Positions 11,299 to 30,926 of a stretch of DNA of 64,000 bases are shown here, piece by piece. The position numbers were made by a program, and so were the translations under genes. The stretch is from Pyrinomonadaceae bacterium (GTDB lineage: Bacteria > Acidobacteriota > Blastocatellia > Pyrinomonadales > Pyrinomonadaceae): NCBI GenBank assembly GCA_019694395.1, contig JAIBCC010000002.1:310330-374329 (forward strand). The letters run 5' to 3'. The notes under the pieces were generated by a model, which did not search any database, had not been told where the DNA came from, and saw nothing but the letters and a program-made list of their open reading frames with translations. The number at the start of each line of letters is the position of its first letter. Position 1 is the first letter of the stretch.

Positions 11299-11889
11299 TT
11301 ATCCACAAGTTCCTACCGCATTGTTTGAAACTCCAGCCATACAGCCCACAACTCGACATAGACAAGCACCACCGCCAGGGCTTTGAGTGTCGCAAGAATC
11401 TGTGCAGGTAGTAACATTAGTTGTTCCTAATCCAGCTATGCCACATGCAGGATCAAAGCACTGACAAGGATTCATAAAATTAACACCGCACACAGAAGAG
11501 GCAGTTGCGGCTACAGGGGTATGCAAAGAAAGAATCAAGGGCAATGCTACCAATGAAGCAATCCCAACTTTGCGGATGGCATCACGACGTGATAAACCTT
11601 TATAATCAATCTTAATTTCTTCATGATTGCTCAACAATTTTTCTTTTTTCAATTGGTCCAAAGCCAACCAAACCAATTCCTCGCTGGTTTGTTGGTTTAG
11701 TTTTTGGCTTAATTTTTGGTTAATGTCAGCAACAGAACTTTTTCCATCGCACAATTCCCAAACAACAGCGGAAGTCTCGTTTAAGCAATATGCTCTGTTA
11801 GAGTTAAAATCATACAATAAAACTTCATCAGCAGATTCTTGGACAACCAAATTATCTTTTCGGCTCAGGGGATAACTATTCAAATTCAT
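11299..11889 (-). CDS. PqqD domain - internal Tat signal - cysteine-rich tail protein (paralogue 1)
   Basis: A 196-residue protein in three parts. Residues about 10-88 form a PqqD-like domain (LLYDFNSNRAYCLNETSAVV, WELCDG, LDQLKKEKLL), the winged fold that binds leader peptides in RiPP synthesis. Residues about 98-130 look like a twin-arginine signal placed internally: LSRRDAIRKVG, a hydrophobic run, then AATA. The last ~66 residues hold ten cysteines (CQC, CLC and single ones) with Gly, Thr and Asn. The start is set by AAGGAG before ATG. A paralogue with the same order lies at 37203-37745. What the tail does is unknown; a secreted, self-chaperoned precursor or a disulfide-rich exported domain are both possible. 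Confidence 0.85.
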   Translation of the reverse strand: MNLNSYPLSRKDNLVVQESADEVLLYDFNSNRAYCLNETSAVVWELCDGKSSVADINQKLSQKLNQQTSEELVWLALDQLKKEKLLSNHEEIKIDYKGLSRRDAIRKVGIASLVALPLILSLHTPVAATASSVCGVNFMNPCQCFDPACGIAGLGTTNVTTCTDSCDTQSPGGGACLCRVVGCMAGVSNNAVGTCG

Positions 11890-14551: not shown

Positions 14552-14857
14552 ATGGGCTGGGCAACACCTTACATCACAAAACTCAAACTTGGCGAAACCG
14601 TCACTTTCCGTCCGCGTGGGCATTCGATGAAAGGCAAAATCGAATCTGGTCAGCTTTGCACGGTTGAACCTATCGAAGATTTTGATTCACTTGAAAAAGA
14701 AGACATTGTGTTGTGCAAAGTCAATGGCAATGAATACCTGCATTTGATCAAAGCAATTCAAGGCAAACGCTTTCAAATCGGCAACAATCGCGGACGAATC
14801 AATGGTTGGGTAACGGCAAATCAGATTTTCGGCAAATGTGTTAAAATTGAAGCATAG
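14552..14857 (+). CDS. S24-like (LexA/signal-peptidase fold) small protein
   Basis: A 101-residue protein made of a single LexA/signal-peptidase-type beta fold. RPRGHSMKGKIESGQ matches the Ser-Met catalytic motif of S24/S26 peptidases, and the later HLIKAI has the lysine where the general base is expected. There is no DNA-binding domain and no membrane anchor. Two nt after the TlpA-like gene and three before sdaA, so co-transcribed. Whether it is proteolytically active is open. Confidence 0.7.
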   Translation: MGWATPYITKLKLGETVTFRPRGHSMKGKIESGQLCTVEPIEDFDSLEKEDIVLCKVNGNEYLHLIKAIQGKRFQIGNNRGRINGWVTANQIFGKCVKIEA

Positions 14858-27966: not shown

Positions 27967-28494
27967 CTACAAAATAAAATGGCGGGTTTGATTTCCGAAG
28001 CGATACCAAAAGGCAAAACCTAATTTCTTTTGTCCATTAAAAACATTATGTTGCAAGAAACAATAAGCAAAAGATTTTCCGTAACCGAAAAATTCGTGCT
28101 TTGTTTGCTCAAATTTAGCTGTGGACTGAGCAGGTGAAGGCTTGATCTTATTTAATTGCAAATATTTACAGAATTCAATTGCATCTTCCAGATGTTTTTT
28201 TACTGTAATAGGCTGAAAAATTTGTGAAAACTCGCGGAAATATTTGCCAAAATCTTTTTCAAGTATCTTTTTTGTCAACGGCAAAAGTTTTTCAACTTCG
28301 TTCAAGCGTTTGTGTAGGAGAGAATCCGCAAAAAAGTTTAGGTCTTCGGGAATGATTGATTTAATTTGAACGATTTCAACCTCATCCAAACCGTTTTCTA
28401 TTCCAACAATTTGAGGATTTTCCCAAAACGTTTGACGCAAGGTTTCATCAGTAAAGATTCGTGCCAAAAAGTTTTGCTGTTCCAAAAGGCTCAT
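27967..28494 (-). CDS. Probable partner protein of the DUF692 oxidase (MbnC/DUF2063-like)
   Basis: A 175-residue protein in the position and with the pattern of partner proteins that accompany DUF692 oxidases. The stretch FADSLLHKRLNEVEKLLPLT, then KDFGKYFREFSQIF and EDAIEFCKYLQ, resembles the helical domain of DUF2063/HvfC and MbnC/TglI-type partners, which bind the peptide substrate. The N-terminal part (MSLLEQQNFLARIFTDE) is compatible. Its ATG overlaps the stop of the zinc-ribbon gene as ATGA, indicating coupling. Family assignment is from memory of the pattern and needs a profile search. Confidence 0.55.
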   Translation of the reverse strand: MSLLEQQNFLARIFTDETLRQTFWENPQIVGIENGLDEVEIVQIKSIIPEDLNFFADSLLHKRLNEVEKLLPLTKKILEKDFGKYFREFSQIFQPITVKKHLEDAIEFCKYLQLNKIKPSPAQSTAKFEQTKHEFFGYGKSFAYCFLQHNVFNGQKKLGFAFWYRFGNQTRHFIL

Positions 28495-28997
28495 TGAAAT
28501 TTGTTCGTTTTATTTTCCACTAAAAATAATTCAGTTGAATTTTCGGTTATGCTTGGAATTGGTTCAAAATCTTTTTCTTCCAAAAGTTTTGCCGTAATCT
28601 TAGATTCAAATTCTTTTTGCATTATCAAGTTTGAGTTCTTCTGTTTTTCCTTCAAATATTCTTGAAAGATGACATAAGCCAAACCCAAAATGCCGCAAAC
28701 AAAGAAAATAATTAAGAAAACACCAAGAAAAATTTTATCCGTTTGACCTGAAAAGATAAATTTATTGAACAAACTTATAATTATCAGAAATATTCCAACT
28801 AAACCTGCTCCAATTAAGCCACCGAAACCGATTTTTCCGATTTTTTCAAAGAACTTTGAAATTTTGGAAGGCGAAATCACATCCGAGATGGCTAATTGTT
28901 CTTGCAAATTTTCAGCAGTTTTTTCTAAATTTAACCCGCAAGCACGGCAAAACTTTTGTTCGGTTGAATTTTCCTTTCCACATTTTGGACAAAACAT
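28491..28997 (-). CDS. Zinc-ribbon membrane protein
   Basis: A 168-residue protein with an N-terminal zinc ribbon (FCPKCGKENSTEQKFCRACG, two CxxC pairs) and two adjacent membrane segments (about 56-78 and 86-110, GLIGAGLVGIFLIIISLF and IFLGVFLIIFFVCGILGLAY), then a charged tail. Such zinc-ribbon membrane proteins are common and their roles are mostly unknown. Its place between the DUF692 oxidase and the probable partner, with overlap to the latter, ties it to that system by inference. Confidence 0.75.
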   Translation of the reverse strand: MFCPKCGKENSTEQKFCRACGLNLEKTAENLQEQLAISDVISPSKISKFFEKIGKIGFGGLIGAGLVGIFLIIISLFNKFIFSGQTDKIFLGVFLIIFFVCGILGLAYVIFQEYLKEKQKNSNLIMQKEFESKITAKLLEEKDFEPIPSITENSTELFLVENKTNKFQ

Positions 28998-29030
28998 AGC
29001 TTAATTTTGGATTTCTAAAATCTCAAAAAT

Positions 29031-29903
29031 TTATACGGTTACTGATTTTGAAAAGTTTGCTTTTTCGCTTAAAGCTCGGGCTGTGTTCAATTCCTTCAAA
29101 ATCTCCGAAAAATGCGGGAAATTCCCATCTCGTTCCAAAATTGCGCCTTTTACGTCCGCACGCGAACAAACCTCCCGATAAACTTCCCAAATTTCGTTTG
29201 GCGTTTGGTAGGAATGAGAATCAATTAAATAGTTTTTAAATTGATGCCCGCCAACAAAATGAAGTTGGACAACTCGTTCTAAAGGTAATTTATCCAAAAA
29301 TTTACGCCAATCGTATTGATGATTTATTGAATTTATATAAAGATTGGTCACATCTAACAATAGCCCGCTATCAGTTTCTTCCAGTATTTTGGTTAAAAAT
29401 TCGGCTTCGTCCATTTCAGCAAACGGATAACGAAACATATAAGTTATATTTTCCAGAATTAAAGGGGTTTTGATTCGATTCTTGACGGTTGTAATATTAC
29501 GGATCAGAACTTTTAATGCCTCATTTGTAAATGGAACAGGTGAAAGATGTCCGATTTCAACTCCGCCGGATTTTGTCCAACAAATATGATCGCTAAACCA
29601 TTCCGGCTGAATCTTTTCTACCAATTCAGCAAACTTTTCAAGGTAATTCTCGTCAATTCCTTCGGCACTTCCCAACGAAAGATTTAATCCGTGCGGTGTT
29701 AATTGAAAATGTTTTTTAAGTAAGTCCAATTCCGCAAGCTTTTGCGGGGTAGCATCAAAGTAATGATCTGCAGTGATTTCCAAAAAATCAATCTCATTCC
29801 GATATAAGAAAATATCGGATTTCAGTTGCGGGCGAAAACCTAATCCTATTTTGGTTTTTGATAGTTGATTTGCGAACTCCGGTTTTTCTAATACATCCCG
29901 CAT
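29031..29903 (-). CDS. DUF692 / MNIO-family multinuclear iron oxidase
   Basis: A 290-residue TIM-barrel protein of the DUF692 (UPF0276, MbnB-like) family. Members are multinuclear non-haem iron oxidases that modify cysteine or other residues in ribosomal peptides (methanobactin, 3-thiaglutamate and related systems). Candidate metal ligands are visible: H71 (TPHGLNLSLG), D105-H106 (SDHICW), E151-N152 (LENITYMFR), D184 and N187 (LLDVTNLY), H215, H220, D228 and H230 (IDSHSY), and E257-D259 (LERDGNFP). It starts 6 nt after the Cys/Gly-tailed membrane protein gene, whose end carries its Shine-Dalgarno GGAGGA. That tail is the likeliest substrate. Confidence 0.9.
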   Translation of the reverse strand: MRDVLEKPEFANQLSKTKIGLGFRPQLKSDIFLYRNEIDFLEITADHYFDATPQKLAELDLLKKHFQLTPHGLNLSLGSAEGIDENYLEKFAELVEKIQPEWFSDHICWTKSGGVEIGHLSPVPFTNEALKVLIRNITTVKNRIKTPLILENITYMFRYPFAEMDEAEFLTKILEETDSGLLLDVTNLYINSINHQYDWRKFLDKLPLERVVQLHFVGGHQFKNYLIDSHSYQTPNEIWEVYREVCSRADVKGAILERDGNFPHFSEILKELNTARALSEKANFSKSVTV

Positions 29904-29909
29904 CCTTTT

Positions 29910-30926
29910 TTATCCTCCGCAACCGCCACCTCCACAGCCACCGCAGCCGCCACCGCCACCGCAACTACTTCCTCCGCTGCAGCTACTTCCTCCGTCACCT
30001 GAACTACAAGAAGATCCGCAGCCCGAACTGCAGCTTGTATGAGAGTAATAACCAATCCCACCATAATCATTATGAGCACGATGAAATGCTTGTTCAAATT
30101 CGCTGAAACCATTCCCGACCAGAACACTTGTGCCGTAAATTCCCATTGCCAACAACAGCGGGTCAACCGCATTTAGGGCAGGAAGGCTCTGTGAATAATA
30201 TTCTTTGGCAATTTTCGGATTAACCCGCAATTTTTCAAAAGTATTTTGCAAACCTTCGAGATATTTTTCACCTCTTTGTGACAATCTTTTTGATTTGCCT
30301 AAAAACCAAAAGATTAGAAAAGCAGCGAAAATGAAAATTATCAGGAAAATTATATTCCAATGTCCGTGAAGTAGTGCTGATACTAATTTATAACCGCCAA
30401 AGAGAGCAATCAAACCAAAAACTGAAAGACTTGAAAGCCGGATTTTATTTGAGACCTCCTCCGGCATCAAGAGATTATTCTGAGTTGCTTTTTGCTCGTA
30501 GGTTGTTGAATAGGGTTTGAGAATTTCGATCAACCCCCAGCTTTCAAAAACATCTTTGGTTTCCCTTGTTTGTTGAAACCACCTCAAAGCATTCCGTTCA
30601 ACCTGAGTAAGGGTTGTCCAATTTGGTTGGTTTTCGGTTAGAACTATATAGGATTTTTTGCCTTCATTAGTAATTTTTAAAAACCCTTTTTGGGTTAGTG
30701 AAAAAACTAAAGTTCGGGCAAATTCGTTTTCGCCGCCTCGTAAATAAGCAATTTCAAAAGGGTCGGGAGATGGCGGGATTAATGGAACAGGTTGATTGGC
30801 GGTCCAATCAAGTTTTGATTTATATAGGTAGAAGACAATTGCCGAGAAGAAAATTATAGCTCCATAAAGCACCAAAAACATTGGTCCCGGCATATTGGCT
30901 AGCGGATTATCAAACAGAAAGTTCAT
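29910..30926 (-). CDS. TIGR04222-type membrane protein with Cys/Gly-rich C-terminus
   Basis: A 338-residue membrane protein. One membrane segment lies near the N-terminus (about 13-35), followed by a soluble domain (GGENEFARTLVFSLTQKGFL, ERNALRWFQQ) and two further helices (about 167-212). The last ~45 residues are almost only Gly, Ser and Cys, with eight cysteines (SCSSGCGSSC, CGGGGGCGGCGG). This build fits the TIGR04222 family, defined by a conserved region next to a low-complexity Gly/Cys tail. Direct linkage to a DUF692 oxidase makes the tail a candidate for cysteine modification. GGAGG stands 9 nt before the ATG. Confidence 0.82.
   Translation of the reverse strand: MNFLFDNPLANMPGPMFLVLYGAIIFFSAIVFYLYKSKLDWTANQPVPLIPPSPDPFEIAYLRGGENEFARTLVFSLTQKGFLKITNEGKKSYIVLTENQPNWTTLTQVERNALRWFQQTRETKDVFESWGLIEILKPYSTTYEQKATQNNLLMPEEVSNKIRLSSLSVFGLIALFGGYKLVSALLHGHWNIIFLIIFIFAAFLIFWFLGKSKRLSQRGEKYLEGLQNTFEKLRVNPKIAKEYYSQSLPALNAVDPLLLAMGIYGTSVLVGNGFSEFEQAFHRAHNDYGGIGYYSHTSCSSGCGSSCSSGDGGSSCSGGSSCGGGGGCGGCGGGGCGG

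Follow-up and report, generated by a model that had tools for sequence, protein, structure and literature searches.

The window (the whole 64,000-nucleotide stretch of DNA that was analysed) encodes two proteins in which a PqqD-like domain, an internal twin-arginine signal and a cysteine-rich tail follow one another in a single chain (Table 1). The place and length that the first-pass annotation of this DNA had given to the 196-residue protein were confirmed, as was its count of ten cysteines in the tail. Its assignment of the first ~90 residues to the PqqD family held up in a profile search, where Pfam PF05402 matched residues 22-85 with an E-value of 1e-8, above its cut-off of 23.4 bits; the same model matched 17 of 18 relatives at E<=0.01. 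The equivalog model for PqqD of PQQ biosynthesis (TIGR03859) gave 26.2 bits, under its cut-off of 46. An AF2 model, built from both copies in the window together with sixteen relatives, placed three strands and three helices across residues 14-82 (pLDDT about 80-93), built the signal as one helix (residues 101-122) and left the tail disordered. The top solved folds in a Foldseek search were lasso-peptide B1 RREs with the leader bound (5v1u and 6jx3), RREs of sactipeptide maturases, and PqqD 3g2b, at E-values of about 0.004-0.03 for a query model that carried the long disordered tail. The N-terminus is a true RRE-type PqqD domain. Such RREs usually belong to the enzyme side of RiPP pathways, where they bind a separate leader. 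Cysteines at residues 35 (CLN) and 47 (CDG) of the PqqD domain are found in most members, despite the expected cytosolic location.

Table 1. Coordinates of the features discussed in the text, with the evidence for each
Feature	Position	Strand	Evidence
PqqD-Tat-Cys precursor-like protein, 196 aa	11299..11889	-	ATG start; one of 40 family members in genome
PqqD/RRE domain, residues 22-85	11635..11826	-	Pfam PF05402, 35.8 bits; AF2 and Foldseek
Internal twin-arginine signal, residues 100-130 (SRRDAIRKVG, hydrophobic run, ATA/AxA site)	11500..11592	-	Family alignment
Predicted mature Cys-rich tail, residues 131-196, ten Cys	11302..11499	-	Cysteine count; family alignment
Second family member, 180 aa	37203..37745	-	PF05402 13.9 bits (sub-cut-off); KRREVIKKIG Tat-type signal; eight-Cys tail
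MNIO-type RiPP maturase gene, bufferin maturase-like	29031-29903	-	PF05114, 295.7 bits, E 3.5e-88
TIGR04222 membrane protein, Cys/Gly-rich C-terminus	29910-30926	-	Adjoins MNIO gene

The internal twin-arginine signal had also been noticed at first pass, and the family alignment bears it out. Residues 100-106 (SRRDAIR) match the Tat consensus S-R-R-x-h-h-K/R, and the full signal runs from SRRDAIRKVG to PVAATA. The RR pair is kept in all 64 members compared, and the position of the Tat lysine is K or R in 93 of 100 members (the RR pattern also served to place the signal). Two fixed prolines and an Ala column are conserved, and an A-x-A closes the signal, with A at -1 in 87/100 members and a small or aliphatic residue at -3 in about 90. 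The NCBIfam Tat model is weak on this protein (11.5 bits against a cut-off of 16.7); the features of a Tat substrate (S-R-R-x-h-h-K motif, h-region and AxA) are all present, and TatC is encoded in the genome (E 3.6e-66). Export of family members by Tat and cleavage after AxA are predicted on these sequence features.

A paralogous family with variable tails

The arrangement of PqqD domain, Tat-type signal and cysteine-rich tail is real, as first reported; it had been taken for a one-off, and in fact belongs to a large family. The genome from which the window derives, that of a soil bacterium of the Acidobacteriota, contains 42 PqqD-like places found by PqqD search and 40 proteins with the complete order of PqqD domain, RR signal and Cys-rich tail, as read directly from the sequences. 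The 40 paralogues are dispersed across many contigs, with some paired or in small arrays (for example at L053, L058, L060 and L063). A search for related loci with the closer alignment A3 gave 12 named loci. Per genome, relatives in the class have between one and at least 26 copies. Even sampling across the phylum found the family in 41 of 396 genomes, eight of them outside the class, and one family gene lies on a plasmid of Gemmatirosa kalamazoonensis (NZ_CP007129.1), a member of another phylum, Gemmatimonadota. The 40 paralogues and the relatives in more than 90 genomes rule out a one-off curiosity or a misassembled fusion. The same subfamily also includes PqqD-like proteins without a tail (L056:9901-10191(-), L053:6533-6721(+) and L099:755-1066(-)), which are probably remnants or free partners.

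Pairwise comparison of the 40 paralogues gave mean identities of 45% for the N-domain, which retains the core LN..A..W..CDG, 54% for the signal and 23% for the tail (21% for shuffled tails). The tails are on average no more similar than shuffled sequence, and some pairs have tails of the same type (up to 66%). Their composition is 15% Cys, with abundant G, A, T, S, P and N and scarce charged or aromatic residues. The position of Ser132, two residues past AxA, is Ser or Thr in 86 of 100 members, a conservation that could also belong to the cleavage context. The tail of the 196-residue protein terminates in ...GTCG, and most relatives finish with a Cys followed by a few residues other than Ser.

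Of 120 distinct tails, 119 have an even number of cysteines, within a range of 4 to 22; the sole odd tail, in L146, has seven. Parity had been 100/100 in the first set and became 119/120 once more genomes were included. As an internal control, the N-domains of the same 120 proteins have odd counts in 22 cases. In addition, a MauE-type or MauE-thioredoxin gene lies next to the family at three loci in total: a MauE-thioredoxin protein adjoins it in L088 and L150 (the genome under study encodes one elsewhere), and the Gemmatirosa plasmid (L175, 1034830-1047237) holds a kinase, the family gene with six tail cysteines, a MauE-type gene and an NTP_transf_5-like gene together. The small subunit of methylamine dehydrogenase, which is rich in disulfides, requires MauE and MauD. 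Because the counts are nearly always even and MauE-thioredoxin-type genes adjoin the family at these loci, we infer that every cysteine of the tail takes part in a disulfide and therefore that the tail leaves the cytosol; disulfide formation and export together are highly likely. A tail that binds a metal or an Fe-S cluster is disfavoured by cysteine counts that range so widely and are nearly all even.

Some tails may have a recognisable fold. A C-C-CC-C-C spacing like that of inhibitor cystine knots (ICK) was found in 23 of 100 tails and is absent from the tail at 11299-11889. One ICK-like tail was modelled at pLDDT 76, and its fold matches were mostly ICK peptides, every one with E > 2; weak Pfam matches on the tails agree with this reading. 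These observations are suggestive of knottin-like tails in some members.

An HprK-related kinase and other neighbours

The first-pass annotation had proposed attention to maturase genes that co-occur with the architecture, and the search for partners found that an HprK-related kinase, often with an NTP_transf_5 protein, tracks the family. In relatives, genes for an HprK-like P-loop protein and an NTP_transf_5 protein adjoin the family gene, usually as a single-strand operon in the order kinase, family gene, NTP_transf_5. A profile search with the kinase matches HPr kinase structures, and its P-loop SGKTT and SDEYA motifs are present; against HprK-related kinase A (TIGR04352) it reaches an E-value of 1.5e-13 and 50.5 bits, far under the cut-off of 200. 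Of 162 genomes from the class, 94 have the family and 96 the kinase; both occur in 89 and neither in 61, and 12 are discordant (Fisher p 2e-30, uncorrected for relatedness, as genomes of the same genus are not independent). Many of the 12 discordant genomes are fragmented, and presence or absence of the two is concordant within genera (for example, in eight of the nine genomes of g6). Among the matches listed, 72 genomes could be checked for distance, and in at least 58 of them the kinase lies no more than 2.5 kb from a family gene. NTP_transf_5 (PF14907) was present at 17 of 29 loci examined and is optional, since it is missing at about 40% of kinase loci. Many kinase loci also adjoin polysaccharide-type genes and tsaB (names assigned by reading the sequences).

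The neighbours of the 40 family genes in the genome under study include no common enzyme or maturase; the recurrent ones are Ser/Thr kinases and response regulators, which look like abundant families. This genome has a single kinase gene (C31, E 1.5e-69), which lies upstream of tsaB and overlaps a single NTP_transf_5 gene (58 bits), and the pair adjoins none of the 40 family genes. Relatives such as G013 hold a family gene at the matching position upstream of tsaB, and the relative G052 has one kinase and at least 26 family members. A layout of one enzyme for many substrates is seen here, with one kinase and 40 precursors on which it would act. A functional link between the family and the kinase is likely, and the chance that the kinase acts on the tail itself is put slightly below even.

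At L091:6777-11164 (C31 in the genome under study), the kinase/NTP_transf_5 pair is preceded by two sugar genes and overlaps tsaB. The sugar genes encode a cytidylyltransferase-isomerase fusion and a PfkB-like kinase and resemble ADP-heptose genes; the same genes adjoin the kinase in G052. It is possible that they supply a sugar donor for the modification. A further protein of 437-455 residues with an HQH cupin-like stretch adjoins the family at L147:4800-6113(-), L150:8267-9634(+) and L072:293-1645(+), and is possibly another enzyme.

Within the window, the statement made at first pass that no maturase gene is present does not hold, as shown by the MNIO gene listed in Table 1. The region around it (27967-30926, minus strand) also encodes a zinc-ribbon protein and a 175-residue protein without a known family. 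No link was found between this MNIO and the protein at 11299-11889, and the recurrent neighbours of family genes included no recognised MNIO or radical SAM family. A 101-residue S24/S26-peptidase-like protein, under Pfam cut-offs, is encoded after a thioredoxin-like gene at 14552-14857 on the plus strand, 2.7 kb from the 196-residue protein, with no evidence tying the two.

Possible mechanism, alternatives and precedents

The first-pass annotation had suggested a self-chaperoned precursor. The part of this idea that stands is a precursor-like protein with an RRE at its N-terminus and a dedicated kinase that co-occurs with it; the part that does not is the cysteines as the target of a maturase, which the even counts and the MauE-thioredoxin genes oppose. 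We infer docking, cytosolic modification, export, cleavage and oxidation because an RRE, an HprK-like kinase and a nucleotidyltransferase all occur here as in lasso systems. The PqqD domain would be a folded leader that remains in the cytosol and docks the precursor onto the dedicated kinase and, where present, would also engage the NTP_transf_5 nucleotidyltransferase. The kinase, with or without NTP_transf_5, would modify a Ser or Thr of the precursor in the cytosol, the best candidate being the one two residues past AxA. The Tat signal would then carry the C-terminal part across the inner membrane, cleavage by signal peptidase after AxA would shed leader and signal, and the freed tail (about 30-140 residues) would be oxidised to a fully disulfide-bonded mini-protein, with a knottin-like pattern in some members. 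In the species under study, a single kinase/nucleotidyltransferase pair would serve about 40 scattered substrates with hypervariable tails.

Several observations speak against this RRE-led precursor explanation: the kinase pair in the genome under study is not beside any family gene, the kinase falls well short of the HprK_rel_A cut-off (50.5 against 200 bits), NTP_transf_5 is absent from about 40% of kinase loci, the tails lack the C-terminal Ser on which HprK-like kinases of described RiPP systems act, RREs ordinarily bind a leader on a separate peptide, one tail has seven cysteines, and genomes that share a genus do not count independently in the co-occurrence. The PqqD part may simply recruit the kinase, rather than bind or hand over its own tail. 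We give the explanation as a whole an even chance of being correct. A more specific version, in which the family is a new class of ribosomal natural product whose recognition domain is the leader, and one kinase/nucleotidyltransferase pair acting in trans phosphorylates or phospho-glycosylates dozens of rapidly diversifying, Tat-exported disulfide mini-protein precursors, is offered tentatively. The gene design under that version would be comparable to that of large secreted-peptide families in animals, which combine a conserved prepro part with a hypervariable cysteine framework.

There are several potential alternatives. The kinase could phosphorylate or bind the PqqD domain as a proofreading switch that delays export, as with DmsD-type Tat chaperones, leaving the tail disulfide-rich and unmodified. 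Such gating of export agrees with the kinase being the constant partner and with tails in which Cys and the Ser/Thr close to the point of cleavage are the only residues conserved family-wide, as a common tail modification therefore has few candidate sites. However, in known RiPP clusters the HprK-like kinases and the nucleotidyltransferases act on the core peptide (PMC8498205, PMC9266682), and the presence of NTP_transf_5 at 17/29 loci suits tailoring better; we consider gating rather unlikely. The PqqD domain could also be a vestige on otherwise ordinary secreted Cys-rich proteins, linked to the kinase only by shared operon ancestry, and the departure of the substrates from the kinase locus in the genome under study and in G052 fits this. 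Yet the N-domain is better conserved than the tail in the 40 paralogues, its core is kept, and family and kinase vary jointly within genera (the g6 genomes being an example), which makes a vestige improbable. A little less probable still is a bitopic membrane protein with an uncut signal, a cytosolic PqqD domain, a periplasmic sensor or binding tail and the kinase as signalling partner; the order of parts does give an N-in/C-out topology with a kinase as partner, but the A-x-A after a fixed proline is a standard signal peptidase I site, and hypervariable tails are ill-suited to a sensor of a single ligand. A Cys-modified RiPP made by MNIO or radical SAM chemistry, possibly by the MNIO of the window, is hardly credible despite the presence of that gene and a weak match (E 0.005) between the 196-residue protein and TIGR04117, a model for Cys-repeat targets of radical SAM enzymes. 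Maturation of this kind was rejected because it would not predict the near-universal parity, because the gene that recurs beside the family encodes a kinase, and because a Cys-rich protein of its own is encoded next to the MNIO (29910-30926).

Each component of the RRE-led precursor explanation can be compared with known systems. The known HprK-like RiPP kinases target a C-terminal Ser. The pseudomycoidin and paeninodin systems, in which a PqqD-type RRE, an HprK-like kinase and a nucleotidyltransferase (PsmN) act together on a ribosomal peptide, share the first two kinds of part with the family, and NTP_transf_5 may correspond to the third. In the family, however, the RRE lies within the precursor, and the substrate is a Cys-rich protein that bears a Tat-type signal and has no Ser at its end. 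The linkage of an HprK-like kinase to the precursor is found here; the C-terminal Ser acceptor is not, and no lasso B2 protease or C cyclase was recognised among the recurrent neighbours of the family. In lasso systems, a PqqD-like B1 protein binds the leader, HprK-like kinases phosphorylate the precursor, and the pseudomycoidin nucleotidyltransferase adds hexose onto that phosphate (PMC8498205, PMC9266682). The HPr-rel-A cassette, of unknown function, shows the same pairing of an HprK-related kinase (TIGR04352) with a PqqD-family chaperone (TIGR04353), which is free-standing there but fused to a Tat signal and tail in the family. The equivalog cut-offs of that cassette were not reached, and TIGR04353 matched just 2 of 18 family members at E<=0.01.

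Prochlorosins, in which one ProcM serves many scattered precursors, are alike in having a conserved leader, a hypervariable Cys-containing core and one enzyme for dozens of dispersed substrates; they differ in that the family's leader is an RRE followed by a Tat-type signal, its cysteines would form disulfides, and no lanthionine synthetase was seen at family loci. Proteusins and the other NHLP- and Nif11-leader precursors (PMC10858898) also place a long leader domain on a RiPP precursor, although the fold of proteusin/NHLP leaders is nitrile-hydratase-like, not PqqD/RRE. The small subunit of methylamine dehydrogenase is likewise a small exported protein with many disulfides and MauE and thioredoxin-like helpers, but it is a conserved enzyme subunit without a PqqD leader or kinase, whereas the family is hypervariable. 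MNIO/bufferin precursors have a dedicated MNIO beside them, unlike the family, near which no MNIO recurs.

As far as could be found, the parts and the chemistry have precedents and the arrangement has none. Searches of open-access papers did not show the PqqD-Tat-Cys architecture, which is weak evidence of absence. In their available portions, RRE surveys cover free RREs and enzyme-fused RREs and make no mention of RREs fused to exported precursors, of Tat or of Acidobacteria (PMC7470986, PMC12710340). These findings suggest an undescribed route to diverse secreted disulfide-bonded mini-proteins. With the RRE on the substrate side, what an RRE-type domain recognises becomes directly testable in a two- or three-gene system. 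If the tails are exported and folded as proposed, each genome of a common soil phylum could yield up to dozens of diverse mini-proteins rich in disulfides, and a kinase family of unknown role may modify them. According to an RRE survey (PMC12710340), 21% of PF05402 proteins exceed the length of a bare RRE without another annotated domain, and some of these over-length proteins may be precursors and not enzymes.
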